From positions 1 through 38,300 of the forward strand of contig CASDXP010000007.1 of the NCBI GenBank assembly GCA_949285455.1: DNA of 38,300 nt, written 5' to 3'. The notes below the pieces were generated by a model. The model saw only the letters and a program-made list of their open reading frames with translations, was not told the DNA's origin and did not search any database. The stretch comes from an uncultured bacterium (GTDB lineage Bacteria > Bacillota_I > Bacilli_A > RFN20 > CAG-826). Position 1 is the first letter of the stretch; each line of letters opens with the position of its first letter. A program made the translations under genes and the position numbers. Below are positions 10,899 through 30,548 of the stretch, piece by piece.

Positions 10899-11279
10899 TT
10901 AACGATTATTTTCTTGTTTACGACGTCTAATAGAATAGATTACAAGGGCGACGATCGAAGTAATCGCGCTTAAAGCGATGACGACGATGATGACCGTTTG
11001 CGAATTGTTCATAATGTCAGAATAGAAAGCTGGGCTAGAAGAAGCATTGGTAAGGGCAAGTTGACCTTCCATCGCAGCAATCTTATCTTGAACGGTCACT
11101 TTGTTAGTTCTATCACCAGCATAACCTGTATCGCCATTAGCGAAATCGCTAATAGTGGCACTGTCTAAACCAGTCGCACCTTCAACGTGCCATGTCGTTT
11201 TTAATGTTTCAATATTATTAAAACCATTATCAGCATCGTTTTCGCAGGTGTAATAAGCTTTTATGTAAAATAATTTTAT
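10899..11279 (-). pseudogene. 3' remnant of a TM-anchored surface protein, paralogue of the gene at 11541-12479
   Basis: The minus-strand frame is open from 11279 down to the stop at 10899. It encodes a tail aligning with the C-terminal third of the intact neighbour: AYYTCENDADNGFNN against GYYTCSSDMDNGYGN, a similar D-F-G stretch, then a TM helix and the basic tail RRRKQENNR against MKRRHSKKN. There is no signal peptide, no good start with an RBS at the 5' end of the homology, and a stop just upstream. A GTG at 11099 could start a 66-residue peptide but would split the homologous domain. The terminator at 10843 survives. It is best read as a 5'-deleted duplicate. Confidence 0.75.
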
Positions 11280-11540: not shown

Positions 11541-12479
11541 TTAGTTCTTTTTGGAGTGACGACGTTTCATGCTAATGAAGACGATAGCAGAGACGGAAAC
11601 GACACTTAATAAAGTTACGACAGCAATGATAATACCATTATCCATGTTGCCGAAGGAGATACCAAATAATAGTGAAGATTCAGCGGTGGATGCTTCATAT
11701 CTTGCTTTCATTGCTTCATATTTGGTCCAAACGTTAGTGGAATTTTCGACACGTTCACCGGTGGCATAATCTTTGCCTTCGAAATCATTAATTAAGACTT
11801 GATCCATACCTTCATTAGGTGTAAACCAAATTCCACCTTCAGCAGCTTCTGGATTGTGAATCCAAGTTTTGGTGAATTCAGCCCAATTACCGTAGCCATT
11901 ATCCATATCGCTGGAGCAAGTATAATAACCTTCTAATACATGTTTATAAGCACCAGCAATAGCGCTATTTTTGCCATATTCAGATTGAAGACTTCCGCGA
12001 GAGAATTGTATGCCATTATCCCAAATATAATAAATTTGTGCATTATCACCTGTAAAATAGGTGTAAGGAGCAAAGGTATTATTACCTTCTGCATCCGTGC
12101 CAGTGTTGATTTCGGCTGCTTCAGTGTTCCAAGTATCAGCATCATTTCGAATGTAGAAAGTTATTTTTCTACCAATCGCTGTTTTTGGAACATCGTAGTA
12201 TGCTAACCAATTAGCACCGGTCTGGACTTGTGCATAGCCTGCTGCTTCAATTGTTTGTTCAACAGCCGTACCCTCCTCATTATAAATGCGAACAGAGGTA
12301 ACATTTCCTTCAGTGTAATTATTTCTGTTAACCCACATACGGAAGCTAAGAGCAGAAGTATCGACATCACCTTCAGCAGCGGAGGTAGATACCATTCCTT
12401 TTGGCGCCATAAGGCCCGCTAATGCACCAACGGCCACAGCTGCACCAATAAATGCAAAGAACATTTTTTTAATTTTCAT
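11541..12479 (-). CDS. Secreted, C-terminally membrane-anchored surface protein, possible carbohydrate-binding
   Basis: A 312-residue protein with an N-terminal signal peptide (1 to about 35, ending TSAAEG), an extracellular region, a C-terminal hydrophobic helix (about 283-302) and a basic tail MKRRHSKKN. There is no LPxTG motif, so anchoring is by the helix. The ectodomain is rich in Trp, Tyr and Asn. Its N-terminal half (for example FRMWVN, WLAYYDVP, KITFYIRN) looks like a beta-sandwich of the starch-binding type, but no family can be named with confidence. AAGGAGGAA lies ten bases upstream of the start. It is transcribed separately from the starch operon (terminators on both sides) but sits directly beside it. 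A truncated paralogue follows. Confidence 0.72.
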   Translation of the reverse strand: MKIKKMFFAFIGAAVAVGALAGLMAPKGMVSTSAAEGDVDTSALSFRMWVNRNNYTEGNVTSVRIYNEEGTAVEQTIEAAGYAQVQTGANWLAYYDVPKTAIGRKITFYIRNDADTWNTEAAEINTGTDAEGNNTFAPYTYFTGDNAQIYYIWDNGIQFSRGSLQSEYGKNSAIAGAYKHVLEGYYTCSSDMDNGYGNWAEFTKTWIHNPEAAEGGIWFTPNEGMDQVLINDFEGKDYATGERVENSTNVWTKYEAMKARYEASTAESSLLFGISFGNMDNGIIIAVVTLLSVVSVSAIVFISMKRRHSKKN

Positions 12480-12654: not shown

Positions 12655-12685
12655 TAAAAAAGAGGAGAGTTTTTAGTTCTCCTCT
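12655..12685 (-). terminator. Terminator closing the starch lipoprotein operon
   Basis: The minus strand reads AGAGGAGA (complement of 12678-12685), a 9-nt loop, TCTCCTCT (complement of 12661-12668), then TTTTTATCC. It is the first terminator seen after the pullulanase gene start at 24223, marking a six-gene unit. Confidence 0.85.
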
Positions 12686-12711: not shown

Positions 12712-13512
12712 TTAGTTCGCAGCTTCAATCCAAATGCTGAAGTCATTCACATTGTTATTATATATCTTAAGATAAATGTTATAACTTCCAGCTGTGACAA
12801 CTTCGATGTTACCATAACCACCAGTTTGTTGCTTCATCGCACCGGTAGAAATTGCACTTCCTTCACCTGTTTCCCAGTTGCCGGCGAACCAATCGTGTTC
12901 CGGTTCTTTATCATTACAAATTTTCCATAAGTCGCCTGTTTCAAATTCGACGCCTAAGGCCATATATTCGGCACAATTTGGAATGAGTGGTTTAGGATTA
13001 ACATCCATTATGATACCACCTTCTGGTTCCCATTCTGTGCCGGTGACGAATGAACCTTCACCAACGATGTAATAATTATCGCCTGTCGGGGTAGGTGGAA
13101 TATCTCCACCTCCACCTCCATCCACAAGTGGGAAGTCACCTGTGTAATTGAAGAAAGCGTATAAGATCATCCCATCTTCACTAGGAACTTCACTATGCCT
13201 TGTTGGTGAACCGTTTCCATCGTAAGATAGCCACGTTTCAAATTCGACATTTTCTTGCGTGGAAGTAACGCTAGTTTTATCAGGTAAAGCGCTGCCTGGT
13301 TTAGCGACGTAAGTAATGGTGTTTTCTAAGAATAAAGTGGGAACTTTTTCTCCTAGTTCACCATCATATCTTCCTTCATCAGAAAGGACGAGATAAGTCG
13401 TAACATCTTCTTCCGCATTTTGAATATGATCCATCGTTGGAGGAAGAGGATTTGAGCACGCCCCGAGGGCGAAGGAGCCAAGGGCTAATAATGTGATAAA
13501 TAATTTTTTCAT
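12712..13512 (-). CDS. Lipoprotein with one probable glycan-binding module
   Basis: A 266-residue lipoprotein with lipobox LGAC (Cys19). An N-terminal domain (about 30-125) of unknown type is followed by a Gly/Pro linker (131-142) and one copy of the module shared by the operon's lipoproteins (146-263: YYIVGEGSF, EYMALGVEFETGDLWKICN, AGSYNIYLKIYNN). The module pattern recalls SusE/SusF- or X25-type starch-binding domains, but that is an inference from layout. It is the last gene of the operon, 23 bp after the amylase gene, with AAAGGAG about 14 bases upstream. Expected location is the outer face of the cytoplasmic membrane. Confidence 0.78.
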   Translation of the reverse strand: MKKLFITLLALGSFALGACSNPLPPTMDHIQNAEEDVTTYLVLSDEGRYDGELGEKVPTLFLENTITYVAKPGSALPDKTSVTSTQENVEFETWLSYDGNGSPTRHSEVPSEDGMILYAFFNYTGDFPLVDGGGGGDIPPTPTGDNYYIVGEGSFVTGTEWEPEGGIIMDVNPKPLIPNCAEYMALGVEFETGDLWKICNDKEPEHDWFAGNWETGEGSAISTGAMKQQTGGYGNIEVVTAGSYNIYLKIYNNNVNDFSIWIEAAN

Positions 13513-13535
13513 AAGTTAGTTCTTAACTCCTTTCT

Positions 13536-16178
13536 TTACGATTTAGTAACGATGATGCCATAAGGCGTCAAGCGTCCATTTTCATTCGCGCCATTTAAGG
13601 CCCAAACTTGTTCTGCGCCAGATACGCTTACTGTCGTCGTTTGTCCATCCATACCAGCATTAATGTAGATGTGGAAGGTTCCACCTTCAGCAGTGATGAT
13701 GAATTCATATAAGTCAGTAATCGCGCCATTCACACCTTGGTAAGAATAGAATTCGCCATATTGACGTTTAATTTGAGCGAGAGTTTTGTAAAGATTTAAC
13801 ATAGAATTTGGATCACTTGCTTGTTGCTCGCTATTGGCGAGTGTAGCGTTATAATCGTCCCATGTGACATGATATTGATCAAATTGATAATCAGTGGTCA
13901 TGTCTTGATATTCGCCACCCCACTTAAATGGTTGACGATACCATAAATCTTCATTGTTCGCATAATCATATAGCGCAATATGTTCATTCAAGTTACCGCT
14001 CATACCAAGTTCATCACCGTAATAGATGAAGGAAATACCTGGGTTGAGCATGATGGTTGCCGCGTGTACTTTCGCACGATTAATTTGCGTTTCCGTACCA
14101 GTTATGGCTTGCGTATGTGAGATGTTATTAACTCTATTGATCGCACGGTCGACGTCATGGTTAGAAGTAAATGGTGAGTTGATGAAGTCAGGTCTATTAC
14201 CTTCTGGTACTTGGACACCATTCACGTTATTAGAGCCATTTCCAGAGTAATTAGAATAGGTTTCAGTGTTTTGCGTCGTACCAGCAAAGCTTGCATTCAT
14301 ACCAGAAGTCGTACGATACAAGTATTCTTGCGTATGGTAATAAAGTGAGAAGTCAAGTTGCGAATCCATCGATTGATAGTAGTAAGCAATTCTTTGACCC
14401 CAACCATCTAAGTTTTCACCTACTAAGAAGCAATCGGGATTGATAGCTTTAAGTTGAGCGTTAAATTCTTTCCAGAAGTTGACGTTCTTAGTCATGTCAC
14501 TTGAATAATCAAATGGGACAGTTACTTCTTCTAGTTGTTCGGTGTCATAATATGTTCTTTCACCGATATCGGAGATAATTAAGTCGTTTCCGTATTCATC
14601 GACTTCATCACGCATGTAAATATGTTTGACGGCGTCAAGTCTAAAGCCATCGAGACCGAAGGATAACCAATATTTAGCCATGTTGATGACTAAGTCTCTC
14701 GTAGCTTGACAATCGTAATTGAGTTCAGCCATACCAGAACCAAACTTACCGTAATAATAGTAATGTGATTCGCCATCGCGATACCAATCTGGATGGTCTT
14801 CAACTGGAATTTGAATGTATTTGCCATCTTCATATTTTTGGACGAGATCACCTTCATATTTCCAGTGGTAGAGGTCACGGTAGTTAATTTCATTACCGTA
14901 TGGATCTGTGCCTTTTCTCGCATTTTGTGAATTTTGGAACCACACGTTATTTTTCGAAGTATGGTTAAGGACGAGGTCCATCAAGACTTTCATACCTAAT
15001 TCATGGGCTTTATAAAGTAGTTCACGGTAATCTTCGATTGTACCAAATTTTGGATCGATTTGATAATAATCGACGATATCGTAACCATGATATGAATTAG
15101 ATAATTGTATCGGTGTAAGCCATAAGACTTGGACACCTAAATCATCTAGATACGGTAAGGCATTGATAATACCTCTAATATCACCTAAGCCATCGCCGTT
15201 AGAATCAGCGAAGCTAGCGACGAAGATTTGATAGCCAACACCTAAGCCTTTGAAAGCTTCAGCGGTCGGTGACATACCGAAATTATCTTGACTTGAATTG
15301 ACGTTAGATTCACTACGGTATTGACCAGTTGTATCAGTGATAGTTGGATTAACTTCGTATTCTTTATCGTAATAGAACGTGTAATTAGCGACGTTACCTT
15401 GGATGCAGAAGATGTGCATTGCACCATTTTCTCTCCAATGGGTTTGGAAATCGTTGATGTAAGTATCCGCACCTCCATCGCTCACCCAGTGCGTACCGCC
15501 ACCCATCGATTCTTCTTGCATGATTAAGAAGCCGACACGTGTTGCACCTTCGAAGTTGAGAGGATTACCAGTTCTACCTCCGACGATGTCAGTGCGTGTT
15601 AAATCGATATCCATGATGCGGCCAGATTGCACTAAATCTTGGCCTTCGCCACCAATATTGGTCATCCATGAACTAGTCATAGCGCGATAATTAGCAGTGA
15701 CTTTAGGATTGTTAGCGCCCCAAAGGGTACCTTCTAGGTTAGAAGGGGCTGCTTCCCAGAACCAAATAGCGTAATTATCGTAATCTTCAAATGTGCCGCT
15801 AGTTCTGAGGTAGTGGATGTAGACGTGACCTTCTTCAGACCAAGAATCGAGCCAATCTTCATATTCTTCAGAATCCATGCCACCTACTACTTCTGCATCA
15901 TATAAAGCATTCGTCGTAAATGATGATTGAACATTAGTTAAATCTTTATCCCATCCTTTAAACGTATAGGAAAAGATATCATCGTCAGGTCTAGTTGGGG
16001 TTGGGCCTTCGTAGACGGCTGTTCCGCCAGCTTCGACGGTATCAGTGAATAAAGTTTCTCCATCCCAGTTAGCGAAAGTGACGTTATAATAGCCTGGCGG
16101 TGGTGGAGTTGGACCAGGTGGATCGCAACTGACCACTAGTAGCGTCACTAAACCTAACATTAAATATTTAAGTTTCAT
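13536..16178 (-). CDS. GH13 alpha-amylase lipoprotein with InlB-like repeat and CBM41-like domain
   Basis: An 880-residue surface lipoprotein (lipobox VVSC, Cys18, then a Pro-rich linker) predicted to hydrolyse alpha-1,4-glucan. Order: InlB/Listeria-Bacteroides-type repeat (about 31-95), a CBM41/PUD-like domain (about 116-272; IHYLR..DYDNYAIWFWE, HWVSDGGADTYIND), then GH13 (about 312-800) and a C-terminal beta domain. The GH13 part shows the calcium loop NGDGLGD (327-333), DLVLNHTS (401-408), GFRLDAVKH with nucleophile Asp515, LVGEN with acid/base Glu588, and SNHD with Asp675. All catalytic residues are intact. Subfamily and exact product cannot be fixed; a neopullulanase-like or maltogenic activity is possible. 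It lies between two module lipoproteins in the same operon. Confidence 0.9.
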   Translation of the reverse strand: MKLKYLMLGLVTLLVVSCDPPGPTPPPPGYYNVTFANWDGETLFTDTVEAGGTAVYEGPTPTRPDDDIFSYTFKGWDKDLTNVQSSFTTNALYDAEVVGGMDSEEYEDWLDSWSEEGHVYIHYLRTSGTFEDYDNYAIWFWEAAPSNLEGTLWGANNPKVTANYRAMTSSWMTNIGGEGQDLVQSGRIMDIDLTRTDIVGGRTGNPLNFEGATRVGFLIMQEESMGGGTHWVSDGGADTYINDFQTHWRENGAMHIFCIQGNVANYTFYYDKEYEVNPTITDTTGQYRSESNVNSSQDNFGMSPTAEAFKGLGVGYQIFVASFADSNGDGLGDIRGIINALPYLDDLGVQVLWLTPIQLSNSYHGYDIVDYYQIDPKFGTIEDYRELLYKAHELGMKVLMDLVLNHTSKNNVWFQNSQNARKGTDPYGNEINYRDLYHWKYEGDLVQKYEDGKYIQIPVEDHPDWYRDGESHYYYYGKFGSGMAELNYDCQATRDLVINMAKYWLSFGLDGFRLDAVKHIYMRDEVDEYGNDLIISDIGERTYYDTEQLEEVTVPFDYSSDMTKNVNFWKEFNAQLKAINPDCFLVGENLDGWGQRIAYYYQSMDSQLDFSLYYHTQEYLYRTTSGMNASFAGTTQNTETYSNYSGNGSNNVNGVQVPEGNRPDFINSPFTSNHDVDRAINRVNNISHTQAITGTETQINRAKVHAATIMLNPGISFIYYGDELGMSGNLNEHIALYDYANNEDLWYRQPFKWGGEYQDMTTDYQFDQYHVTWDDYNATLANSEQQASDPNSMLNLYKTLAQIKRQYGEFYSYQGVNGAITDLYEFIITAEGGTFHIYINAGMDGQTTTVSVSGAEQVWALNGANENGRLTPYGIIVTKS

Positions 16179-16244
16179 GAGCGTCCGCTCCTTTCAAAAG
16201 ATAATATAAAAGATTTTTTAAATTAAGATTAATAATTATTAATA

Positions 16245-17252
16245 TTAAGCTGCAACAGCGACCCAAGAAGAGGTTCCGCCATCAGCGTAAAGTGTACCAT
16301 AAACTGTATAACGACCAGCGGTTTGTACGACAGCGTTCGTATTTTCAATAGCCATTAAACCAGTGGTGAAAACTTCACTTTCACCATTATGATCGATCCA
16401 CTTGGACATATCTTCGTTACAAACTTTCCAATTATCACCAACTTGGAAATTCATCGTAATCATCCATTCGTGGCTACCTTCGGTGCCAGGATTTGGATTA
16501 ACTTCCATTTCAAAGCCACCAGAAACGTTCCAAGTTGCCCCAGTGAAAGATGGACCTTCACCGACGATATAAAGACTATCTTCGGCTGGATCAGGTAACG
16601 TAATAGCGCCTACCCAAAGTTCGATTGCACCATCGAGCCAGAATTTAAGATACATAGAATATGTACCAGCGGTGACGACAGTTGAAGTACCTGCGGCGTC
16701 GTGAGTTAAATCACCGACGTAATATGCACTTCCAGCATCCTTAGCGGGGTCTTGATCACGATATGAAGTAATTAAGACTGTTTCATCTTCATCTGCATCA
16801 TAGATGATAAAAGTATCATCTTTTGCTAAGGTGACACCTTCTACCATATATTCTTCACAGTTTGGATCAGTATTACCTTCATTTAACGTTAATGGGTAAG
16901 TAGTAGAGTTATTAACCATAAGATTTAAACCCGCAAGAACTTCACCACCTCCAATTGGAGTAGAAGTGTATTGCGCGGTCGTGGTAAAGGAAGATTGAAC
17001 GTTCGTCAAATCTTTATCCCAACCACTGAAAGTGTAAGTATATTCACTATCAGCTGGTCTAGTAGGAGTTTCACCTTCGTAGACGGCTGTTTCGCCAGCC
17101 TTGACTGTATCAGTACCTAAGACTGTTTCATCGTAATTGACGAAAGTGACAGTAAATTCACCTTCTGGTCCTGGTGGGACTGGGTCAGGCTCATCACAAC
17201 CCGTTAGTAAGCCAATCGATGCTGCTAATACTGCTAATAATTTTAGTTTCAT
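16245..17252 (-). CDS. Lipoprotein with InlB-like repeat and two probable glycan-binding modules
   Basis: A 335-residue lipoprotein with lipobox LTGC (Cys19) and an Asp/Pro-rich linker. An InlB-type repeat (33-98; VTFVNYDETVL, PTRPADSEYTYTFSGWDKDL) is nearly the same as the one in the amylase, even in the following VQSSFTT. Two modules follow: 107-218 (EEYMVEGVTLAKDDTFIIYD, AGTYSMYLKFW) and 226-335 (LYIVGEGPSF, GDNWKVCNEDMSKW). Conserved aromatic residues in each module could form a sugar platform. There is no catalytic domain, so the inferred role is to capture starch for the co-encoded enzymes. Confidence 0.78.
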   Translation of the reverse strand: MKLKLLAVLAASIGLLTGCDEPDPVPPGPEGEFTVTFVNYDETVLGTDTVKAGETAVYEGETPTRPADSEYTYTFSGWDKDLTNVQSSFTTTAQYTSTPIGGGEVLAGLNLMVNNSTTYPLTLNEGNTDPNCEEYMVEGVTLAKDDTFIIYDADEDETVLITSYRDQDPAKDAGSAYYVGDLTHDAAGTSTVVTAGTYSMYLKFWLDGAIELWVGAITLPDPAEDSLYIVGEGPSFTGATWNVSGGFEMEVNPNPGTEGSHEWMITMNFQVGDNWKVCNEDMSKWIDHNGESEVFTTGLMAIENTNAVVQTAGRYTVYGTLYADGGTSSWVAVAA

Positions 17253-17300
17253 ATTTAATCTATTTATCCTCCTTTAGATATGTATACGAAAACAATATAT

Positions 17301-19985
17301 TTATTCTACTGGAGTAGGAGTCGCAACTTGAACCCAAGTTGAATAATCCCCATCCGCATAGAATGATAGATAAATAGTATAAGTGCCGGCTTGGTCGACG
17401 ACGACGTTTTTATCACTATCTTCAGTGACGTGCATCATGTTTTCAGCGAAAACACCTGGTGTGCCGCCATTTTGCCAAGCGTGCCAATTAGTGGTGCCTT
17501 CAGTGACAGTTACAAGTTTCCAAGTATCACCAACTTCAAAATCGATAGTAATAGTGTATTCAGTGGCAATATCTCCACTTGGATTTGGATTAGTTTCCAT
17601 TTTTACGCCACCCGCGGCATTCCAAGTAAGAGTTGGATCAGTTAAGAAAGAACCACTTCCAACGACGTAAGCCCCATCTTCAACAGTTGGTGTAGGAGCG
17701 GGTTCAGTAATTGGAGTAGCGTAAACTTCGATCCAATTAGGATTATCGGTGTAATTATGAATGTAGATATCATATTCACCCGGAGTGACCACTAAGATGT
17801 TATCTTTGGATTCATTTCCTGCTGCGCCTGGGGCGAGTAAATCACCAGTGGAGAAGGCTGAACCATTAGAATAAGCACTTACGTTAACGTAATTTTCTTG
17901 CGTTACATCGTAGAATCTAAATTGATCACCAGCTTCTAAAGTTAGACCAGTAATCATATATTCAAATACATAATTTGTGGCTGCGTTAGGATTAGCTTGT
18001 AATTTGATACCAGATTCAACTGTCCAAGGATCTAAACCTTCTTCAACAAATGAACCATCACCAACGATGTACATTCCTTCAGTCGTAGGTGTAGGTGGTT
18101 CTGGCGTAGTGATAGGTGTAATCCAAACTTCGTACCAACTTGGATTATCTACGTAGTTATGAAGATAAATGCTATATTTACCCGGAGTGACCACTAAGAT
18201 GTTATCTTCTGTTTCATTTGCACCGGTTCCAGGTTTAAGCATATCACCGACACTAAAAGCGGAGCCAGCGGTAGCGGAGTCATTGTAGCCACCGACGGTA
18301 ATATAAGTTTCGTTTGTAGCGTCGTAGAATCTAAATTCATCGTCAGCCGCTAAAGTTAGATCAGTGATCATGTATTCAGCGACGTAAGTTTCACTCGCAG
18401 CAGTGTTAGCTTGTAATTCGATGCCAGATTCAACTGTCCAAGGATCTAAACCTTCTTCAACAAATGAACCATCACCAACGATGTACATTCCTTCAGTCGT
18501 AGGTGTAGGTGGTTCTGGTTCACTTACGCGTGGAGAATAAAGTTCGATTGCACCATCATCCCAAAATTTAAGATAGAAAGTGTAAGAACCAGCGACGTGA
18601 ACAATGGAAGTACCAGCATTATCGTGACTTAAATCACCGACGTAATATGCACTTTCGGCATCTTCTACTGCATCTTGATCACGATAAGAAGTAACTAAAA
18701 CAATTTCATTATCATTGTTTTTAATTGTAAAAGTATCATCAACTTCTAAAGCGATACCAGTAGAAATCATGTATTCTTCACAATTAGGAATTTCATTATT
18801 TTCATTTAAAGTAAATGGATGAGAAGTCGTACCTACGACAAGGTTATAACCTTCTTGTGGAGTGGGTGGAATTTCGATTGGGGAAGAAACGTAAGTAGCT
18901 TTCGTAGTGAAAAATTCTTGTACGTTTGTGATATCTTTATCCCAGCCATTGAAAGTATAGGTATATTCACTATCATCTGGTCTAGTTGGAGTTTCGCCTT
19001 CGTAGACGGCAGTTCCACCTTCTTCGACGGTATCGACAAATAAGACTGTATCATCATAATTAGCGAAAGTGACGGTGTAAGTGGTAGGTGTTTCTCCTCC
19101 ACCGATTTCACTCGTGGTGTAACTTGCGATTAAATCGACGTCATCTTCAATTTTATAAGTGGCTAAATCGATGAGTGTTTCTGTTTCATCACCATCTACG
19201 TACCAACCTTTAAATGTATAAGAAATATTTTCTTCGACATTATCAGGTAAAGTTGGAGTTTCTCCTCCGTAAACAGCGTAAGTTTCGCCTTCTCTTAAGC
19301 CATCGACGTAAAGGCGAGTATTTTCTTCATCCGCGTTATAGAAACTAACGACGTAAACGACATCGTCTAACTGTGTTTCTCTTTCGTTATAGACGCTATA
19401 GAAGTCTTGATAACTAATGCGGCTTATCGTCTCTGAATTTGATGGAGTAGTAACTTCGTTATCTTCATCTAAGTAAACAAAGCTATCCCATGCGTAGCCA
19501 TAAGCATCGTTAATGGGTAACATTAAAGTTTCAACTTCAGGAATGAGTTCATCGATGTCTCTTAAAGTATCACTTTCAAGCATCCAACCTTCGTAAAGTA
19601 AATCTTCTTCTTCTAAAGTTGGTGCGGTATCAACTTCTGGATCAAAATCTTCCGAGATAGCGGTTTTATAAAAACGCATTAGATAAGAAGTTGAGAATGT
19701 GGCGGTTATCGTCGTATCTTTTTCAATTTCATAAAGAGTTTTATCCCAGCCAGTCCAATTATGTCTAATACGATCATCATCGGATGGTTTGCTAGGAGTT
19801 TGACCTTCATAAATCGCATTAGCGCCATGCTCTACTTCGGTCGTATAAAGAGTGGTGCCATCATAATTTTTGAAGATGACTTCATAAGTTGTGCCAGGGG
19901 GAACTGGATCTGGCCCTGGATTGGAGCACGCCCCTAAAATGAGAGCGAACGCTCCAAGGATTGGAAGTAAGATTTTTTTCATCAA
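17301..19985 (-). CDS. Large lipoprotein with InlB-like repeats and four probable glycan-binding modules
   Basis: An 894-residue lipoprotein (MMKK signal, lipobox LGAC, Cys20) preceded by GGAGG. The N-terminal half has InlB-type repeats at about 33-97, 207-290 and 302-367, around an unassigned segment (100-205). The C-terminal half has four modules at about 379-485, 499-624, 637-757 and 771-888, separated by Pro/Thr linkers (EPEPPTPTTEG, PEPPTPTTEG). Modules two and three begin with the identical peptide GMYIVGDGSFVEEGLDPWTV, reflecting a 95-bp exact DNA repeat. This is the most repeat-rich protein of the operon and the best candidate for multivalent polysaccharide binding. No enzyme domain is present. 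Confidence 0.8.
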   Translation of the reverse strand: MMKKILLPILGAFALILGACSNPGPDPVPPGTTYEVIFKNYDGTTLYTTEVEHGANAIYEGQTPSKPSDDDRIRHNWTGWDKTLYEIEKDTTITATFSTSYLMRFYKTAISEDFDPEVDTAPTLEEEDLLYEGWMLESDTLRDIDELIPEVETLMLPINDAYGYAWDSFVYLDEDNEVTTPSNSETISRISYQDFYSVYNERETQLDDVVYVVSFYNADEENTRLYVDGLREGETYAVYGGETPTLPDNVEENISYTFKGWYVDGDETETLIDLATYKIEDDVDLIASYTTSEIGGGETPTTYTVTFANYDDTVLFVDTVEEGGTAVYEGETPTRPDDSEYTYTFNGWDKDITNVQEFFTTKATYVSSPIEIPPTPQEGYNLVVGTTSHPFTLNENNEIPNCEEYMISTGIALEVDDTFTIKNNDNEIVLVTSYRDQDAVEDAESAYYVGDLSHDNAGTSIVHVAGSYTFYLKFWDDGAIELYSPRVSEPEPPTPTTEGMYIVGDGSFVEEGLDPWTVESGIELQANTAASETYVAEYMITDLTLAADDEFRFYDATNETYITVGGYNDSATAGSAFSVGDMLKPGTGANETEDNILVVTPGKYSIYLHNYVDNPSWYEVWITPITTPEPPTPTTEGMYIVGDGSFVEEGLDPWTVESGIKLQANPNAATNYVFEYMITGLTLEAGDQFRFYDVTQENYVNVSAYSNGSAFSTGDLLAPGAAGNESKDNILVVTPGEYDIYIHNYTDNPNWIEVYATPITEPAPTPTVEDGAYVVGSGSFLTDPTLTWNAAGGVKMETNPNPSGDIATEYTITIDFEVGDTWKLVTVTEGTTNWHAWQNGGTPGVFAENMMHVTEDSDKNVVVDQAGTYTIYLSFYADGDYSTWVQVATPTPVE
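18010..18104. repeat. 95-bp internal direct repeat, copy 1
   Basis: Identical to 18424-18518 (offset 414 bp). It encodes the linker and opening strand of a module in the 894-residue lipoprotein. Confidence 0.93.
18424..18518. repeat. 95-bp internal direct repeat, copy 2
   Basis: Identical to 18010-18104, while the rest of the two modules has diverged. This implies gene conversion or a recent recombination tract. Confidence 0.93.
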
Positions 19986-20016
19986 TTTTTATCCTCCAAA
20001 AATTATATTTTAAAGG

Positions 20017-21171
20017 TTAGGCTGCTGAAGCAGCGACCCACATGGAGAAGTGTGTAGTCGGTGCATCAGCGTAAACCTTAAGATAAATATCGTAATTGCC
20101 AGCGACATCTACGACAGCGTTATAGTTACCATAACCATCATCGACAGTGTGCATAAGATTTGCGGCGAAAGCGCTTCCTTCGCTAAGTTCCCAGCCACTA
20201 TTGACCCAAGTCGCACCATCCCAAGAACAAATCTTGAAGGTGTCGCCTTCTTCAAATGGTTGATTAAGTAGCATGAATTCTTCGCCATCCTTGAATGAAG
20301 ATTCTTCATTTAATAACATCGGGACACCGCCTGCGGCATTCCAAGTTAAACTTGGATCAGTTAAGAATGAACCATCACCGACGACGACCCATTCACCATC
20401 GCCATCTTTAACGATAGATAAAGCGCTGACCCAAAGTTCATAAGAGGTCGTACTCACTTTTAGATATAAGTCGTAAGTACCGGCGTATGCGACGGTCACG
20501 ACATTATCTTGATGAGTCATATCACCGACGAAGAATGCACTTTGTGCATCGCTTTGTGGGTTACGATCACGATAATTAGTGATGACGATATCCTCACCGT
20601 TCGCATCGAGGAATTTGAACTGATCACCGACGTCGAATGTCACTTGTAAAGCCATGTATTCGTTGATGCCAGCATCTTCTGGATCTTCATGGTAATCAAG
20701 TAAGATACCGCTATCTTTATCCCACGGTGTGCCGCCATTCATGAAGGCGCCTTCACCTACGAGATAATATTCCATATCTTCAGGTGGAATGACTATAGGT
20801 GGAACGTAACTTGAATCCCATTGGCCATAAATATATAAGAATTGACCGACGACGTTTGGATTAGGGCAAGTGTAAGTATCGAAATCGATGAGATCGGACA
20901 TATCACCTAATAAAGGTTTAAATGACCAGCCGAGGAAAATATCGAAGGCAGGATCATTAGATGTAGGATTAGTGGAAGGGGGAGTAATCTTTTCACCATA
21001 CTTTGCAGTTACTTCGTAGAAAGGATCCTTTAAATCCTCTTCATCACTATTTTCAAAGAAGTAGAAATGGACTGGGGTTTCTGGAACTGGGGGAAGGGGA
21101 TCTGGTTCTGGAGCACAGCCGACGACTAAAAGTGAAGCGAGGGCGGCGAGAAAAAACATTTTCTTTTTCAT
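20017..21171 (-). CDS. Lipoprotein with two probable glycan-binding modules
   Basis: A 384-residue lipoprotein when started at the ATG at 21171. This start gives a proper signal (MKKKMFFLAALASLLVVGC, lipobox Cys19) and has AAGGAGGAAAG upstream. The longer open frame to 21255 would run into the pullulanase gene and bury the signal. After a Pro-rich linker, residues 33-125 resemble a degenerate InlB-type repeat (FLGW, YGQW). Modules lie at 135-250 (YYLVGEGAF, VGDQFKF, AGTYDLYLK) and 261-384 (WVVVGDGSFLTDPSLTWNAAG, GDTFKICSWDG). The second is close to the last module of the 894-residue protein. It starts 19 bp after the pullulanase stop. Confidence 0.8.
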   Translation of the reverse strand: MKKKMFFLAALASLLVVGCAPEPDPLPPVPETPVHFYFFENSDEEDLKDPFYEVTAKYGEKITPPSTNPTSNDPAFDIFLGWSFKPLLGDMSDLIDFDTYTCPNPNVVGQFLYIYGQWDSSYVPPIVIPPEDMEYYLVGEGAFMNGGTPWDKDSGILLDYHEDPEDAGINEYMALQVTFDVGDQFKFLDANGEDIVITNYRDRNPQSDAQSAFFVGDMTHQDNVVTVAYAGTYDLYLKVSTTSYELWVSALSIVKDGDGEWVVVGDGSFLTDPSLTWNAAGGVPMLLNEESSFKDGEEFMLLNQPFEEGDTFKICSWDGATWVNSGWELSEGSAFAANLMHTVDDGYGNYNAVVDVAGNYDIYLKVYADAPTTHFSMWVAASAA

Positions 21172-21190
21172 CTTTTCTTTCCTCCTTTCC

Positions 21191-24100
21191 TTAATAGCCA
21201 TAGGCAAACATGAGAAGTTGATATCTTTCCATGCTCGCGCAATCGGCTTTGCCATCGATTCTAGAATTGAACATTAAGGTGCTTGTATCCATAGACATAG
21301 AAACACTATTGTTGTCCGCTCTTCCAGAGAAGGCAATGTAATAATTTCCACCGCTAGTTCTTTCGGTGCAGAAGCCAAAAGCAGTAGAGCCACTTTCGGT
21401 TTGCCAACCTTTTGTAATAGAAGTATTATCGGGGAAATCGATTAAAGTTTTTGAAATGATATCTTTTCTTAATTGAATCATTTCTTGGAATTTTTCAAAG
21501 TAAGGAAGCATGTTATGCTTAACGCCATTATAGTCGGTGATAGAAATCTTACGATCATATTGGAAAGCATTACATAGATCGCTTGAACGATAAGAGTTAT
21601 GAGAGATGATTTTGCCATACATTCTCACTTCTGGAGTGCATACTGGACCTGGTTCATAATCTTCCGCATTTGGATCTCGATAAGATGGTAAATCAGGATA
21701 AGGAATAGCATCGTTATCAGGATTATCTGGATCATCGTTTATGACGAGCGCTTTACTTCTAAAGATTTCTTCACCGGATTGCATGAAAGCAACGCCTTGT
21801 GAGAACATGACCGCAGCATGGACTGCGACACTTGCTGTTGCGACAACTTCTGGATTTGGTTCATATTCTGGCCCAGGAGTAAGTTCATCGGTTTCTTTTA
21901 ATGTGTAATTTAGTTGATCCCAAGCAGTGTAGTTATCGTGACAAGAAGCATAATTTATCGTTTGGACAGCGTTAGAGTAACCGCCATAGGAATTGACGCC
22001 TTGTAACATTTGGACGACTTCATTAGCCTTACCAGCGACATCGCTTGCGCCTTGGGAAATAAAACCATAACCAGGATAAGGAACATTCGTTCCATAACCG
22101 AAGTCATTACCGCCTCTGATGGCGTTACGGCCACCATCGTTGAAACCACCGACAGTGCTCGGATTTTCTTGTGTTGGATATAAATCACTATAAGCAGCAG
22201 CAGTATCGGTACCTTTAGTGCCTGGATCACCATTGTAACCACCAGAAGTCCAACCTTCACCGTAGACGACGATATCTGGATCAACTTCGTATAAAGCTTT
22301 TCTTACTTTATCCATCGTGCCAGTATCGATTAAACCCATGAGGTCGAAACGGAAACCTTTAATTTTAAATTCAGAGGCCCAATAGACGACGCTATCGACG
22401 ATGAATTTAGAAGCCATGGTCGCTTCAGTTTTTACTTCGTTACCGCAACCAGCGCCATCAGTGTAGAAACCTTCCTCGTTCGTTCTAAAATAGTAACGAG
22501 GCATAATTTTATTTAAGTTATTAGATGAGACGGATGAAACGTGGTTGTAGACGACGTCCATGATGATACGTGTATGATTAGCGTTCTGCGCGTATTCTTT
22601 CACAAGAGTTTTAAGTTCGGTGACACGTACTTCACCATTGTATGGATCGCTTGAATAACCACCTTCGACGACGTTGTAGTTAAGCGGGTTATAACCCCAG
22701 TTGAATTTGACTTCAATTTCACCATTATCTTGATCGAAGAATGGTAAGATTTGTAAAGCGTTCACACCTAATTCTTCGATGTGATCAAAACCAGTTTTAA
22801 CAGTGACACCATCTTGGGTGTAAGTTGTTCCCTTTTCGTAGAAGGCAGGGAATGTACCACGTGGGGATTTTCCATTCCATGTATCATCCATCGTAAGGTC
22901 ACGGATGTGAATTTCATAGATCGATAATTCACGGCGGTCAACGATATCATAACCTTCGACGCCATCCCAAACTTCTGGAACTTCATCCCAGCCTTCAGGA
23001 TCGGTAGCGTCCAAATCAAGAATCATACCGCGAACACCATTGATGCCAGCGCTTCTTGCGTATGGATCAACGACTTCATTATTGCCGTTCACATTGATGA
23101 CGTTATAGGTGTAATATCGACCATTTAAATCACCTTCATCTTCCGCGGTGACAGTCGTTTGCCAAACGCCACCTTCGGAAATGTACATGCTATATGATAA
23201 ATAATTATCACCCACCAAATCATCGATGTAACTTGGTGTGCCGCGTCGATAGAGACGAAGTTCCACTAAAGCGGCGGTTGGAGCCCATAATTTAAAGGTC
23301 GTTTGACTCGGTGAATAAGTGACACCTAAATCATCGCCGTCATAAGTGTAGAATTCTTCGAATCTTGGGGTGCTATATAATGGTTCTAGCGACACATTAT
23401 AAACACGTGTTCTTTCCAAATTATCATCGAAGATAACCGCGAGTTGGAAGACGATATTTGGTCTAATCGTGGTCGGTAATTCGATATCCCACGCATAGAC
23501 AGTTTCGTCTGAACCATCTGGACCTGTTCCTTCTGAAACGTAAGAAGTTTCTTCTGGCTGACCAGTTTTGATGACGAAATTTTCATAGCGTGTACGTTGC
23601 ATATCAGCGTTCAAACGATAATAAGAAGCGGTGAGGGCGTAAAGCTTATAAGAATTGACTGTGCCATCACCTTCGACGTGAATCGTTTTCCAATCGCTGA
23701 ATTCGTAACTAGTAAGACGTGCCCCTAAGGTTTCTTCGTAAGTAGAATAAACTTCGACGGCACCTCCGACACCTTCTAGACACCAGACGGTTAAACTACC
23801 ATCTTCAGCGAAGGTGTAATCTGCGTAATTGATTGGGGTGTCGAGAGATTGACCTTGCCAAGTCCCGACGTTTTTGATGATGAAGTTGAAAGTCGAATGA
23901 GCGGGCCATTCGCTCGGATCGATGATGACGTACATGCCGTAGTCTTCATGAATTCCGTCCGCTTCAAGTTCAACACCATCTTGTCCACCAGCCCAAAGCC
24001 AGAAACGCTTAGTCGTATAATCAGGAATGTTCATACGATAATAAATCGTTAGACTTGTAGGGATCGTGGAGTCTTGGGCCTCAAATTCACCTATGAAATG

Positions 24101-24223
24101 AGGAATATCTTCTTCTTCAAAAAAAAGATTTTGGTCCTCAAAATCGTAGGCCAAACTTGTGCCGAGAAGGGAACCGCATGCTACAAGAAGTGTAGCAAAC
24201 AAGCTCAAATGTTTTGGTTTCAT
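21191..24223 (-). CDS. pulA: Secreted type I pullulanase (GH13)
   Basis: A 1010-residue debranching enzyme that hydrolyses alpha-1,6 bonds in pullulan and starch. A signal peptide is present; LVAC at 13-16 could be a lipobox, but cleavage after SLA at 25 is the alternative. Order: CBM41/PUD-like domain (about 52-160), an unassigned beta domain (about 165-285), CBM48 (about 300-395), the GH13 catalytic barrel and a C-terminal beta domain. The type I signature is present as FNWGYNP (507-513, usually YNWGYDP). Catalytic residues are Asp627 (GFRFDLMG), Glu656 (VYGEGW) and Asp763 (SCHDN). GAGGAG lies six bases before the ATG. It is the first gene of the operon, and 120 bp with a terminator separate it from the glucosidase gene. 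Confidence 0.93.
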   Translation of the reverse strand: MKPKHLSLFATLLVACGSLLGTSLAYDFEDQNLFFEEEDIPHFIGEFEAQDSTIPTSLTIYYRMNIPDYTTKRFWLWAGGQDGVELEADGIHEDYGMYVIIDPSEWPAHSTFNFIIKNVGTWQGQSLDTPINYADYTFAEDGSLTVWCLEGVGGAVEVYSTYEETLGARLTSYEFSDWKTIHVEGDGTVNSYKLYALTASYYRLNADMQRTRYENFVIKTGQPEETSYVSEGTGPDGSDETVYAWDIELPTTIRPNIVFQLAVIFDDNLERTRVYNVSLEPLYSTPRFEEFYTYDGDDLGVTYSPSQTTFKLWAPTAALVELRLYRRGTPSYIDDLVGDNYLSYSMYISEGGVWQTTVTAEDEGDLNGRYYTYNVINVNGNNEVVDPYARSAGINGVRGMILDLDATDPEGWDEVPEVWDGVEGYDIVDRRELSIYEIHIRDLTMDDTWNGKSPRGTFPAFYEKGTTYTQDGVTVKTGFDHIEELGVNALQILPFFDQDNGEIEVKFNWGYNPLNYNVVEGGYSSDPYNGEVRVTELKTLVKEYAQNANHTRIIMDVVYNHVSSVSSNNLNKIMPRYYFRTNEEGFYTDGAGCGNEVKTEATMASKFIVDSVVYWASEFKIKGFRFDLMGLIDTGTMDKVRKALYEVDPDIVVYGEGWTSGGYNGDPGTKGTDTAAAYSDLYPTQENPSTVGGFNDGGRNAIRGGNDFGYGTNVPYPGYGFISQGASDVAGKANEVVQMLQGVNSYGGYSNAVQTINYASCHDNYTAWDQLNYTLKETDELTPGPEYEPNPEVVATASVAVHAAVMFSQGVAFMQSGEEIFRSKALVINDDPDNPDNDAIPYPDLPSYRDPNAEDYEPGPVCTPEVRMYGKIISHNSYRSSDLCNAFQYDRKISITDYNGVKHNMLPYFEKFQEMIQLRKDIISKTLIDFPDNTSITKGWQTESGSTAFGFCTERTSGGNYYIAFSGRADNNSVSMSMDTSTLMFNSRIDGKADCASMERYQLLMFAYGY

Positions 24224-24293: not shown

Positions 24294-24311
24294 ACACTCT
24301 TTTTAAAGAGT
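24294..24311 (-). terminator. Terminator of the alpha-glucosidase gene
   Basis: The minus strand reads CACTCTTTAAAAAGAGTG followed by a run of eight T. It separates the glucosidase gene from the pullulanase operon. The promoter of that operon must lie between about 24240 and 24290. Confidence 0.88.
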
Positions 24312-24344
24312 GAATTTGAAAAAAGTGTAAATAAATTAATAAAT

Positions 24345-26036
24345 TTATAATTTTTTGATAAGTAAATATACTTCGAATGGGCGAAGTGTATCATCTTCTT
24401 TAACGTCTTGGTAATTATGAAGTTTTATTTCGTAATTTGTTTTATCGAATGTGAAGATTACTTCATATGGTCTAAAGTTAGCGATGAGTACGAGTTCTTG
24501 ATCTTTGCCGTGACTATAAGCAAAAACATCTTCATTTTCATAATCGATGTAAGCGAAGTAAGCATCGTGGACGAGCGTTTCTATTTCCTTTTCTTTTCTT
24601 AGAGCCATCGCCGCTTTAAAGTAATGCAAAATTGAATCTTTATCTTTCAAGTTGGAAGCGACGTTAACGTCTTTATAATTTGGATTAATTTTTAAGTGCG
24701 GGGTAGCTTTAGAAAAGCCAGCATTTTCGCTATCATCCCATTGCATCGGAGTGCGACCTGAGACTCTAGCGGTGCGGTTTAAGAAATGAATCATCTTTTC
24801 TTCGCTAAATTTATGTTTGTTTTCTTCGATGAAATTTTGAGCGGAAACATCTTTAAAATCATCTAAATTGGTGTATAGAGTATTGGACATACCGATTTCA
24901 TCGCCGTAGTGAATAAAAGGCACACCATACATGAAAAGTAAAGTCGTGATTAAAGCTTTCGCACTTTCCTTACGATATTTAATACTTCCATATTGCGATA
25001 AGACACGTGGATGATCATGATTGTTCCAATAAATCGCTAAGCCTTTCGCATCTTTATAACAAGTTGACCACCAACGCATAAAACCATTTTTTAAACAAGT
25101 TAAATCTGTCTTAATTTCTTCGTCAGTTTTTTCAATTGAATCATAGGCACCATTACACCAAGCGGTATCAAAATTGAACACTAAGTCAATTGGACCATTT
25201 GTTTTGTTATTGTAACGAAGTGATTGTGTAGCGGAGATGGAACCGCCTACTTCACCGATGGTGACGATATCGTATTTAGAAAAGACGTTTTCATTTAATA
25301 AATCCAAATATTCAAATATTTCTTCTCGATTGGAAAATTTAGAAGGATCGAAGACGTAGCCGTTTTCATCTTTTTCACCAATCGCATCAGAAAAGCTCAT
25401 ATCTTTTGCGAGATGAGCGACTGCATCTAATCTAAAACCATCCACACCTAAATCTAAATATTTTTTAGCGATTTGATAAATCTTTTCACGAAGTTTTGGA
25501 TTGCTCCAATTTAAATCAGGCATCGTATTAGAAAAGCAGTGGAAGAAATATTCATCTAACTTTGGCTCATATTCCCAAGTGGAAGTAGAGAAGAAACCTT
25601 TCCAATTAGAAGGAGGTAGATTATTTTCTTTTCCTTTTTTAAAAATATAATAACCATATTCCTCATTATTTCTATCTTCGATAGCGTTCTTATACCACGC
25701 ATGTTCTTTAGAAGTGTGATTTAAGACGAAGTCGATGACAATCTTTATATTTCTTTTATGTGCTTCATGTAATAAAGTAATCAAATCTTCATCTTGACCA
25801 AATAAAGGATTGATATGTTCAAAGTCGCTCACATCGTAGCCATAATCATCCATCGGTGATTTAAAGATAGGGCAAATCCAAATAAGGTTGATGCCTAAAT
25901 ATTGTAGGTAATCTAATTTTTGAATGATACCTTGTAAGTCACCTAAACCATCCCCATTCGTGTCAAGATATGAACTGGGGTAGATGATGTAGCCTATCGT
26001 CTCGTTTAACCAATCCTTTGACTTCATACTTAACAT
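24345..26036 (-). CDS. Cytoplasmic GH13 alpha-glucosidase (oligo-1,6-glucosidase-like)
   Basis: A 563-residue enzyme without a signal peptide, expected to split short malto- or isomalto-oligosaccharides inside the cell. GH13 motifs: NGDGLGD (27-33), DFVLNHTS (102-109), GFRLDAVAH with Asp204, GEVGG with Glu262 and NNHD with Asp341. The fifth conserved region reads MPDLN (172-176) rather than QPDLN, placing it in the intermediate group between oligo-1,6-glucosidases and neopullulanases. Region II (DAVAH instead of DVIN) also departs from classic oligo-1,6-glucosidases. No Shine-Dalgarno is seen. A TTGATG-16-TATATT promoter ends 3 nt before the ATG, so Met4 (ATG at 26027) may be the real start on an almost leaderless mRNA. 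Confidence 0.88.
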   Translation of the reverse strand: MLSMKSKDWLNETIGYIIYPSSYLDTNGDGLGDLQGIIQKLDYLQYLGINLIWICPIFKSPMDDYGYDVSDFEHINPLFGQDEDLITLLHEAHKRNIKIVIDFVLNHTSKEHAWYKNAIEDRNNEEYGYYIFKKGKENNLPPSNWKGFFSTSTWEYEPKLDEYFFHCFSNTMPDLNWSNPKLREKIYQIAKKYLDLGVDGFRLDAVAHLAKDMSFSDAIGEKDENGYVFDPSKFSNREEIFEYLDLLNENVFSKYDIVTIGEVGGSISATQSLRYNNKTNGPIDLVFNFDTAWCNGAYDSIEKTDEEIKTDLTCLKNGFMRWWSTCYKDAKGLAIYWNNHDHPRVLSQYGSIKYRKESAKALITTLLFMYGVPFIHYGDEIGMSNTLYTNLDDFKDVSAQNFIEENKHKFSEEKMIHFLNRTARVSGRTPMQWDDSENAGFSKATPHLKINPNYKDVNVASNLKDKDSILHYFKAAMALRKEKEIETLVHDAYFAYIDYENEDVFAYSHGKDQELVLIANFRPYEVIFTFDKTNYEIKLHNYQDVKEDDTLRPFEVYLLIKKL

Positions 26037-28412: not shown

Positions 28413-28889
28413 ATGGAAAATAATTACTTAAATTGGGAAGAATATTTTATGGGTTTAGCGTTACTTTCTAGTTTACGCAGTAAAGACCCTAATTCTAAAG
28501 TAGGGGCTTGCATCGTCGATGACGATCATAAAGTCGTTTCTATCGGCTATAATGGTATGCCAAAAACTTTAGATGAAGATAAATTATCCTGGAATAAAAA
28601 TGAAGGTTTAGATTCGAAATATCTCTACGTTTGTCATGCTGAATTTAATGCAATTTTAAATGCGAAAGATGGCATTAGATTAAATGGTTCGACTTTATAT
28701 GTCACTTTATTTCCATGCAACGAATGTACGAAAGCCGTCATCCAATGTGGTATTAAAGAAATCATCTATTTAGATGATAAATATCACGATACTTTGTCTT
28801 GTCAAGCATCGCGCAAGATGCTCGATTTAGCAGGCATTAAATATCGTAAATATGAAGGGCGATTAATCGAGGTGAATTTGAAACGATGA
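28413..28889 (+). CDS. dCMP/cytidylate deaminase (ComEB type)
   Basis: A 158-residue zinc deaminase predicted to convert dCMP to dUMP for thymidylate synthesis. Zinc and catalytic residues are intact: HAEFNAI with His75 and Glu77, and PCNEC with Cys102 and Cys105. The conserved N-terminal region SKDPNSKVGACIVD is present. Length is normal for the dCMP deaminase/ComEB group. The gene overlaps ecfA1 by 4 nt. In Bacillus the ComEB name reflects an operon with competence genes, which are not here, so the metabolic role is preferred. Confidence 0.9.
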   Translation: MENNYLNWEEYFMGLALLSSLRSKDPNSKVGACIVDDDHKVVSIGYNGMPKTLDEDKLSWNKNEGLDSKYLYVCHAEFNAILNAKDGIRLNGSTLYVTLFPCNECTKAVIQCGIKEIIYLDDKYHDTLSCQASRKMLDLAGIKYRKYEGRLIEVNLKR

Positions 28890-29710
28890 GTGCGTTGCGT
28901 TTCGCTCATGTCTTTGCATCTTACGAAGAAGGAAAGGACGTCTTAAAAGACGTTTCTTTTTCAATTGCAGAAGGCGAATTCGTTTCCATCATCGGCCATA
29001 ATGGTAGCGGTAAGTCCACTTTAGCGAAACTTGCGGCGGGTTTGCTCGAAGTCGAAAAAGGAGAAATTTACATCTACGATGAATTGCTCACTCCAAAAAG
29101 TGTGACTAAATTACGTAAAAGAATTGGTATTGTCTTTCAAAATCCTGATAATCAATTCATTGGAGCGTCAGTCGAAGACGACATTGCTTTTGGTTTAGAA
29201 AATCAAAACGTTCCTAGAGAAGAAATGCAGAGGAGAGTAAAACAATTTTCCACTCTTACTGGCATGGAAGAATTTTTAGATAAAGAACCACAAAATTTAT
29301 CAGGTGGACAAAAACAAAGAGTGGCAATTGCCGGTGTTTTAGCCATGAATCCTGACATTTTAATCTTAGATGAAGCGACAGCGATGCTAGATCCTAAAGG
29401 TCGAAAAGATATGATGGATATCGTCTTTAAACTAAGGAAAGAAAAACCCTCTTTAACGATCATTTTAATTACGCATGAAATTGAAGAAACATTGCATAGC
29501 GATCGCATCATCGCTTTGAATGATGGAGAAGTTTATTTAGAAGGAAAGCCAGAAGAAGTTTACGCGAATGAAGATAAACTTCTCGCTATCGACTTAGATA
29601 TTCCTTTCATATTTAAGATGAAAAAAGCCTTAAAAGAAGAAGGAATAGATGTAGACGATATTGCTAATTTAGACGACTTAGCGAGGTATTTATGCCAATT
29701 AAATGCGTGA
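28886..29710 (+). CDS. ecfA1: ECF transporter ATPase EcfA1
   Basis: A 274-residue ABC ATPase of the energy-coupling factor module that drives vitamin or micronutrient uptake. Walker A GHNGSGKST is at 37-45, the Q-loop FQNPDNQF (84-91) is typical of Ecf/Cbi ATPases, the signature LSGGQ is at 138-142 and Walker B ILILDE at 158-163. It overlaps the preceding gene by 4 nt and ecfA2 by 19 nt. EcfA2 and EcfT follow directly. No S-component gene is present, so this is a shared (group II) module serving substrate-binding subunits encoded elsewhere. Confidence 0.95.
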   Translation: MSALRFAHVFASYEEGKDVLKDVSFSIAEGEFVSIIGHNGSGKSTLAKLAAGLLEVEKGEIYIYDELLTPKSVTKLRKRIGIVFQNPDNQFIGASVEDDIAFGLENQNVPREEMQRRVKQFSTLTGMEEFLDKEPQNLSGGQKQRVAIAGVLAMNPDILILDEATAMLDPKGRKDMMDIVFKLRKEKPSLTIILITHEIEETLHSDRIIALNDGEVYLEGKPEEVYANEDKLLAIDLDIPFIFKMKKALKEEGIDVDDIANLDDLARYLCQLNA

Positions 29711-30546
29711 ATTTAAATTACGTTTACAATAAGAAAAGTCCTTTGGAGCAAGAAGCTTTAAAAAATATTAATTTGCTCATTGAAGATGGGGTCTATCTTG
29801 CTATCGTCGGTCATACAGGAAGTGGGAAATCCACTTTAGTGGAACATTTTAATGGTTTGCTTTTTCCTACGACTGGTGAAGTTCATATCGATGAGTATGT
29901 TTCTAATAATAAAAGAAGAAAAAATAAGAAATCTCTTTTAGCGTTAAGACAAAAAGTTGGCTTAGTGTTCCAATTCCCTGAATATCAATTATTTGAAGAG
30001 ACAGTTTTAAAAGATGTGATGTTTGGTCCTAAAAATTTTAAAGTGTCTTTAGAAGACGCAACCATTAGAGCAAAAGAAGCTTTAAATAGCGTTGGATTAG
30101 ATGAAAGTTATTACGAACGTTCACCTTTTGAACTAAGTGGAGGAGAAAAAAGAAGAGTAGCGATCGCCGGTATCTTAGCGATTAATCCCTCCACGATAGT
30201 TTTAGATGAGCCGACCGCGGGTTTAGATCCGAAAGGGGCTAAAGAAATTTTAAGTTTACTTAAAAAGTTACATGAAGAAGGAAAAAATATTATTATCGTC
30301 ACACACGATATGAATATTGTTTTAAATGAAGTAGAAGAGGTTATTTTATTAAAAGATGGTGAACTTATCGCTCAAGATGATCACCTTTCCATCTTCCGAT
30401 ATGATTTAGAAGATTTATCGTTAGAAATTCCTAAGTCTTATCAATTCGTAGAGGCGTTAAATAAGCATGGTTTTCATCTAGATATTTCTAAGGTACAAGA
30501 TATTAAATATCTTGCTCAAGAGATTGTTAAGGAGATTAAAAAATAA
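29692..30546 (+). CDS. ecfA2: ECF transporter ATPase EcfA2
   Basis: A 284-residue ABC ATPase that pairs with EcfA1. Walker A GHTGSGKST is at 40-48, the Q-loop region FQFPEYQLFEE (93-103) is characteristic of EcfA2, the signature LSGGEKRR is at 148-155 and Walker B TIVLDEPT at 168-175. The ATG lies 19 nt inside ecfA1 with GCGAGGT just upstream. It is followed after 2 nt by ecfT. Confidence 0.95.
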   Translation: MPIKCVNLNYVYNKKSPLEQEALKNINLLIEDGVYLAIVGHTGSGKSTLVEHFNGLLFPTTGEVHIDEYVSNNKRRKNKKSLLALRQKVGLVFQFPEYQLFEETVLKDVMFGPKNFKVSLEDATIRAKEALNSVGLDESYYERSPFELSGGEKRRVAIAGILAINPSTIVLDEPTAGLDPKGAKEILSLLKKLHEEGKNIIIVTHDMNIVLNEVEEVILLKDGELIAQDDHLSIFRYDLEDLSLEIPKSYQFVEALNKHGFHLDISKVQDIKYLAQEIVKEIKK

Positions 30547-30548
30547 TT

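Follow-up and report, generated by a model that had tools for sequence, protein, structure and literature searches.

A predicted starch capture-and-digest operon with SusE/SusF-type lipoproteins in a probably wall-less lineage of Bacilli

Genome-reduced, peptidoglycan-poor Bacilli are widespread in animal guts but have not been cultured, and their nutrition has mostly been guessed at from lists of pathways. A locus in one such genome raises the question of what four lipoproteins without enzyme domains do beside a pullulanase and an amylase. It lies on contig CASDXP010000007.1 of assembly GCA_949285455.1 (lineage RFN20, CAG-826); the window, that is the whole stretch of 38,300 nucleotides analyzed here, is the entire contig (C7 in our numbering) of a 1.106 Mb genome that is 97% complete. 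Six genes run on its minus strand from 24223 down to 12712 in the order Pul (pullulanase), B3, B4, B2, Amy (amylase) and B1, and their reading frames are found where an earlier, sequence-only reading of this DNA had put them. We consider it probable that this Bacilli lineage, itself probably wall-less, uses them as an operon for capturing and digesting starch at the cell surface: lipoproteins with X25 modules would capture the polysaccharide, GH13 enzymes at the surface would cut it and ATP-binding cassette (ABC) importers would take up the products. Such an operon offers a concrete route by which one of these Bacilli could feed, with starch captured and digested directly at the naked membrane. 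It would also place the SusE/SusF-type module in a third kind of cell envelope and so separate the binding principle from the outer-membrane porin that usually goes with it.

The repeated module and its predicted sugar site

B1, B2, B3 and B4 contain one, two, two and four copies of a single module (each i-Evalue at most 2.6e-38 in a hidden Markov model search), they have no enzyme domains and all four carry a lipobox; the model and the reading frames thus agree with the sequence-only reading, which had described four non-enzymatic lipoproteins of this make-up next to a pullulanase and an amylase lipoprotein. The same model finds no copy in Pul or Amy. Because it was trained on the window copies themselves, the independent part of the count is the pairwise identity of the modules, 19-71%, together with the invariant columns V, E, D, V, G, Y and Y. 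The pattern YxVGxGSF had been proposed for every copy and is present in seven of the nine; this N-terminal part is missing from the first modules of B2 and B4.

The B1 module (12718..13083) was used for structure prediction and gave a β-sandwich of about 120 residues with a predicted local distance difference test (pLDDT) score of 93. Its three best fold matches among 350,542 PDB chains are SusF (4FE9), SusE (4FEM) and Sca5 X25-2 (7RPY). X25 is the name given to modules of SusE, SusF, the Bacillus acidopullulyticus pullulanase and the Ruminococcus bromii scaffoldins (PMC9112005). A search of all PDB sequences with the nine window modules alone returned nothing useful and a broader profile was needed; built from 33 modules, the window copies plus copies from relatives (alignment A3), it placed SusF first (3.7e-4), followed by the CBM20 of glucoamylase (0.015) and by SusE (0.12-0.23). 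The sole relevant Pfam family, SusF_SusE, is matched by six of the 33 members of A3, at best with 2.5e-6, and single module copies match SusF_SusE (9e-4) and CBM_20 (0.011) weakly. SH3-domain matches of the profile (E 0.02-0.7, all partial) were rejected as local look-alikes of the GD-x-F-K-I segment. Likeness to CBM20 is also seen in the whole B4 protein, which exceeds the CBM_20 cut-off (32.4 against 23.3 bits, 7.9e-8) with its best stretch in module 4; however, single modules fail at 0.01 and the fold search favours SusE and SusF. By profile and predicted fold, the window modules are of the X25 / SusE-SusF type, as remote relatives. The resemblance to SusE and SusF noticed earlier goes beyond analogy and amounts to module homology, and a check for a match to a non-glycan family had the opposite outcome, with the starch modules of SusF, SusE and X25 as the best hits.

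It was shown that Sca5X25-2 holds maltotriose via W509, W620, W661, K654, N564, N684 and N687 (PMC9112005). Four columns of A3 show a similar arrangement, namely W18 (W in 32/33), K54 (K in 28/33), W65 (W in 23/33) and N92 (N in 30/33). They fit W620, K654, W661 and N684/N687 of Sca5 in the same order and with a similar spacing from K to W, an equivalence drawn from alignment order and spacing rather than from superposition. Maltooligosaccharide or starch would be the ligand of this predicted site.

The four binders differ in how many of their modules keep the quartet. B3 (20017..21171, lipobox LVVGC) has an inner module with an incomplete site, WKIV (20419..20778), and a C-terminal module with the complete site WKWN (20026..20400). 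In B4 (17301..19985, lipobox ILGAC), spacer domains of the List_Bact_rpt type are followed by four modules, of which the first has lost the site (-TVT; 18525..18830), the second and third show the conservative variant WRYN (18111..18497 and 17709..18083) and the fourth is complete (WKWN; 17322..17681). B2 (16245..17252, lipobox LLTGC) has a spacer domain, a module with a lost site (-ITT; 16602..16952) and a complete C-terminal one (WKWN; 16251..16583). B1 (12712..13512, lipobox ALGAC) consists of a conserved N-terminal domain and the single module described above, which also reads WKWN. The complete quartet is thus located in the C-terminal, membrane-distal module of every binder, and the same is true of the orthologues in G044 and G042 (G numbers denote genomes of relatives and L numbers the loci compared). 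By their quartet residues, four of the nine modules appear fully competent and another two almost so, whereas three do not.

The distribution of sites bears on a different view of the locus, in which it is an ordinary surface amylase/pullulanase operon whose binders only tether or space the enzymes, or assemble a complex by protein contacts through the inner modules, with a minor affinity for starch. A conserved ITxYRD segment recurs in the inner modules of B2, B3 and B4, which lack the sugar site, and the modules are preceded by spacer domains, as such a role would predict. Yet the last module of every binder has a complete site, and in relatives a binder with a single module between both enzymes suffices, which makes us regard this view as unlikely. 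Within a starch-capture operon the inner modules without a site, which the genus conserves, may act as spacers or help in assembly.

Enzymes and transcription unit

Pul (21191..24223) is a probable secreted type I pullulanase with a CBM41-like PUD, a CBM48 and a GH13 catalytic domain (PF02922, PF03714 and TIGR02104). TIGR02104 is its best family by far, with 446 bits against a cut-off of 504.5, and the catalytic motifs GFRFD, YGEGW and CHDN are all present. The Pul N-terminus has a possible lipobox, LLVAC, at residue 16, with a signal peptidase I site as the alternative. Amy (13536..16178) is a GH13 α-amylase lipoprotein (PF00128, 1.9e-79) with the lipobox VVSC, a spacer domain, a stretch that resembles CBM41 by eye and a catalytic domain that keeps GFRLD, GEN and NHD.

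The gaps between the six genes are 20-66 bp long. The start of B3 was corrected from 21255 to 21171, where a Shine-Dalgarno sequence (AAGGAGG) and an ATG follow the Pul stop at 21191. Predicted terminators are found on both sides of the operon: at 24295..24312 on the minus strand, a 7-pair stem followed by eight T marks the end of the upstream GH13 gene, and at 12656..12685, also on the minus strand, GAGGAGA and TCTCCTC (12684-12678 and 12668-12662) form a stem of seven pairs with a loop of 9 and a T run behind B1. With gaps so short between flanking terminators, the single transcription unit proposed before is well supported by sequence, not by RNA. Starch may regulate the unit; a promoter scan showed no excess over shuffled sequences, and no operator common to the operon and the maltodextrin loci of the genome was seen.

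Linkage to starch enzymes in relatives

Within the taxonomic family, 67 of 224 genomes and 18 of 35 genera have the module, one record coming from the goat reticulum; outside the order it becomes rarer (28 of the 395 genomes that sample the class). A common layout has one small module lipoprotein between the pullulanase and the amylase (L055, L093, L094, L106, L113, L118, L136, L137 and others), which is also seen in a neighbouring family, and two relatives encode fusions of the module with a GH13 amylase (L054, L049). Judging from these layouts, the window's genus has expanded a pullulanase-binder-amylase core. Almost every genome of the family encodes a pullulanase (216 of 224), in line with the PulA encoded by environmental Tenericutes (PMC7301438). 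A complete quartet (W, K/R, aromatic, N) is seen in 54 of the 96 modules at GH13 loci, compared with 9 of 43 elsewhere (p 1e-4).

GH13 genes are found at 36 of 57 module loci, 27 of them adjacent or fused, and at one of 20 control stretches (Fisher p 3.9e-6), although the loci come from related genomes and are non-independent and the control is small. This limit is one of several points that weigh against the starch-capture reading. For the count itself only GH13 catalytic domains were used, since queries that include modules and spacer domains produce false GH13 assignments. The module fold matches have Foldseek E-values of 1.6e-3 and 1e-2, and every window module, taken singly, stays below the curated cut-off of SusF_SusE. 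The site is altered or lost in five of the nine modules, all of them inner ones. Proteins of the 5'-nucleotidase type and large Ig-like surface proteins also contain distantly related modules, in some cases with no GH13 gene nearby, so the X25 fold alone is no proof of starch binding. Finally, at the completeness of this genome, the gene absences reported below are probable, not certain.

Some of these points suggest that the modules bind something else, such as host glycans, other polysaccharides, nucleic acid or protein, and have starch enzymes as neighbours by a habit of the lineage. Besides the relatives in nucleotidase-type and Ig-like proteins, two types of inner module are strongly conserved in the genus even though their site is gone. 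However, GH13 loci retain the quartet more often than other loci do, fusions of module and amylase exist, and the cases with a lost site include exactly the nucleotidase proteins (FIIQ, YQYQ); we find this explanation very improbable. The nucleotidase proteins are of the calcineurin-like phosphoesterase / 5'-nucleotidase type with one N-terminal X25-like module (L057:9415-11289, L031:1405-3324 and L032:52-1914), which is, as read from its residues, a non-starch use of the fold.

Another option is that the capture system is real and is directed mainly at glycogen, from bacteria or animals, instead of plant starch. Glycogen is available in animal guts, its linkages are identical to those of starch, and the wide occurrence of the pullulanase family in the group would suit it. 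Nothing in the sequence separates glycogen from starch, and multivalent, spaced binders would be better suited to granules that are large or insoluble than to glycogen, which is soluble. We give this option a modest chance, the largest among the alternatives, and keep starch as the preferred target of the operon.

Further module-bearing proteins were seen in the survey. In other genera, GH13 genes have neighbours about 1 kb away that encode multi-module proteins of 1250-1550 amino acids, with complete sites in several of the modules (L101, L105, L111, L124, L134); by their site residues these are possible further surface starch binders. A genus lipoprotein of 421-422 amino acids (L058:190-1458, with relatives in L092 and L096) has one divergent module (WAWD/WQWD) and lies away from GH13 genes. 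In the window's own genome, L062:18762-20000, next to the first maltodextrin ABC locus, encodes a protein that has two weak X25-like modules with the sites WQEN and WGAN.

Cell envelope, uptake and relation to known systems

The genome had been described as Gram-positive in type, and this has to be revised. Neither the PF00905 transpeptidase (penicillin-binding) nor PF00953 (MraY) has a match in the genome, and PF00905 is also missing from all four genomes of the genus and from 22 of 29 relatives. These absences argue for an organism that is probably peptidoglycan-deficient, or wall-less, and peptidoglycan loss has been described for related uncultured orders (PMC10868615). Signal peptidase II is encoded in the genome and, as the wall is probably absent, the lipoproteins should sit on the outward-facing membrane.

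It was also stated that no ABC transporter is nearby. This is true for the window, which holds no sugar ABC transporter and only an ECF-type (energy-coupling factor) set at 28886-31409. In the genome as a whole, two carbohydrate ABC loci are found on contig C1, at 137-145 kb and 189-197 kb, with a solute-binding protein, two permeases, a MalK-type ATPase and GH13 genes. In G080 (L049), moreover, the binding protein and permeases run on through an amylase lipoprotein, a pullulanase, two module lipoproteins and an amylase-module fusion, so that there a transporter is contiguous with the orthologous operon. The system shares with the maltodextrin ABC uptake loci of Bacillota such importers with GH13 genes; unlike them it has an additional set of binders which, in the window, is unlinked to a transporter. 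The second maltodextrin ABC locus of the genome encodes a MalK-type ATPase of 868 amino acids (L063:10548-13154) whose C-terminus is extended by ~500 residues that match no Pfam family, and a MalF-type permease of 924 amino acids at L049:16445-19219 has ~670 residues ahead of its permease domain.

A mechanism that fits these data can be suggested. The C-terminal X25 modules of B1-B4 would hold α-glucan chains at the exposed cytoplasmic membrane, with the spacer domains keeping the modules off the membrane and the complete site always in the module farthest out. Acting together with them, Amy would cut α-1,4 bonds and Pul α-1,6 bonds, and the freed maltodextrins would be taken in by maltodextrin-type ABC importers whose genes lie elsewhere in the genome, for final breakdown by cytosolic GH13 enzymes. 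The surface proteins may form one complex, as had been suggested earlier.

The closest comparison is with the starch utilization system (SUS) of Bacteroides thetaiotaomicron, whose SusE and SusF are likewise non-enzymatic lipoproteins that begin with a spacer domain, continue with tandem modules of this fold and are encoded together with GH13 enzymes. In contrast to it, the window system is without SusD, is not expected to face an outer membrane, has four binders with nine modules and would use an ABC importer instead of SusC. The earlier comparison with the division of labour of SusD-G thus stands for the SusE/SusF-type binders beside starch enzymes and fails for SusD: as that reading had also said of the operon, SusD is missing, and PF07980 has no match anywhere in the genome. 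SusC is absent from the Pfam matches of the operon genes; no genome-wide search for it was made. The system would work like the SusE/F/G part of SUS and, as it has no SusD, is not a SUS member. The second comparison is with Sca5 and Sas20 of the R. bromii amylosome, which also have X25 pairs in non-enzymatic Bacillota surface proteins and matching W, K, W and N residues (PMC9112005). There, attachment is by cohesin-dockerin pairs and cell-wall anchoring, whereas here lipid anchors are found, no dockerin (PF00404) occurs in the genome, which sets it apart from an amylosome, and a wall is probably absent.

Somewhat more tentatively, we lean towards the view that wall-less Bacilli of the gut evolved a SUS-like system of their own, with X25 lipoproteins of the cytoplasmic membrane, unobstructed by wall or outer membrane, in the place of SusE/F, surface GH13 lipoproteins in that of SusG and an ABC importer in that of SusC/D, as an old pullulanase-binder-amylase core grew to nine modules in this genus. 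Our search of the open-access literature brought up no account of this kind of operon from wall-less Bacilli, which agrees with the impression that it is new for this type of organism, but the modules as such belong to the described X25 type (PMC9112005).

Three neighbours on the minus strand lie outside the operon. Upstream, in a separate unit, 24345..26036 encodes a GH13 protein without a signal peptide of the oligo-1,6-glucosidase / phosphotrehalase type (PF00128, 9.2e-126; TIGR02403, 3e-144, under its cut-off), and it is the likely cytosolic step. Downstream of B1, 11541..12479 forms its own unit and encodes a protein with a signal peptide and a C-terminal membrane anchor, a possible accessory surface protein. 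Its relatives in the genus, and only these, show a CBM41-like Pfam match (0.005-0.007), which remains a weak hint since the structure model of the protein (pLDDT 50) is too poor for fold searching. At 10899-11279, an open stretch of 126 codons without a start resembles the C-terminal part of tail-anchored proteins of 535-554 amino acids in G044 and G042 (L046:4944-6551) and is, by this likeness, a 5'-truncated gene remnant.

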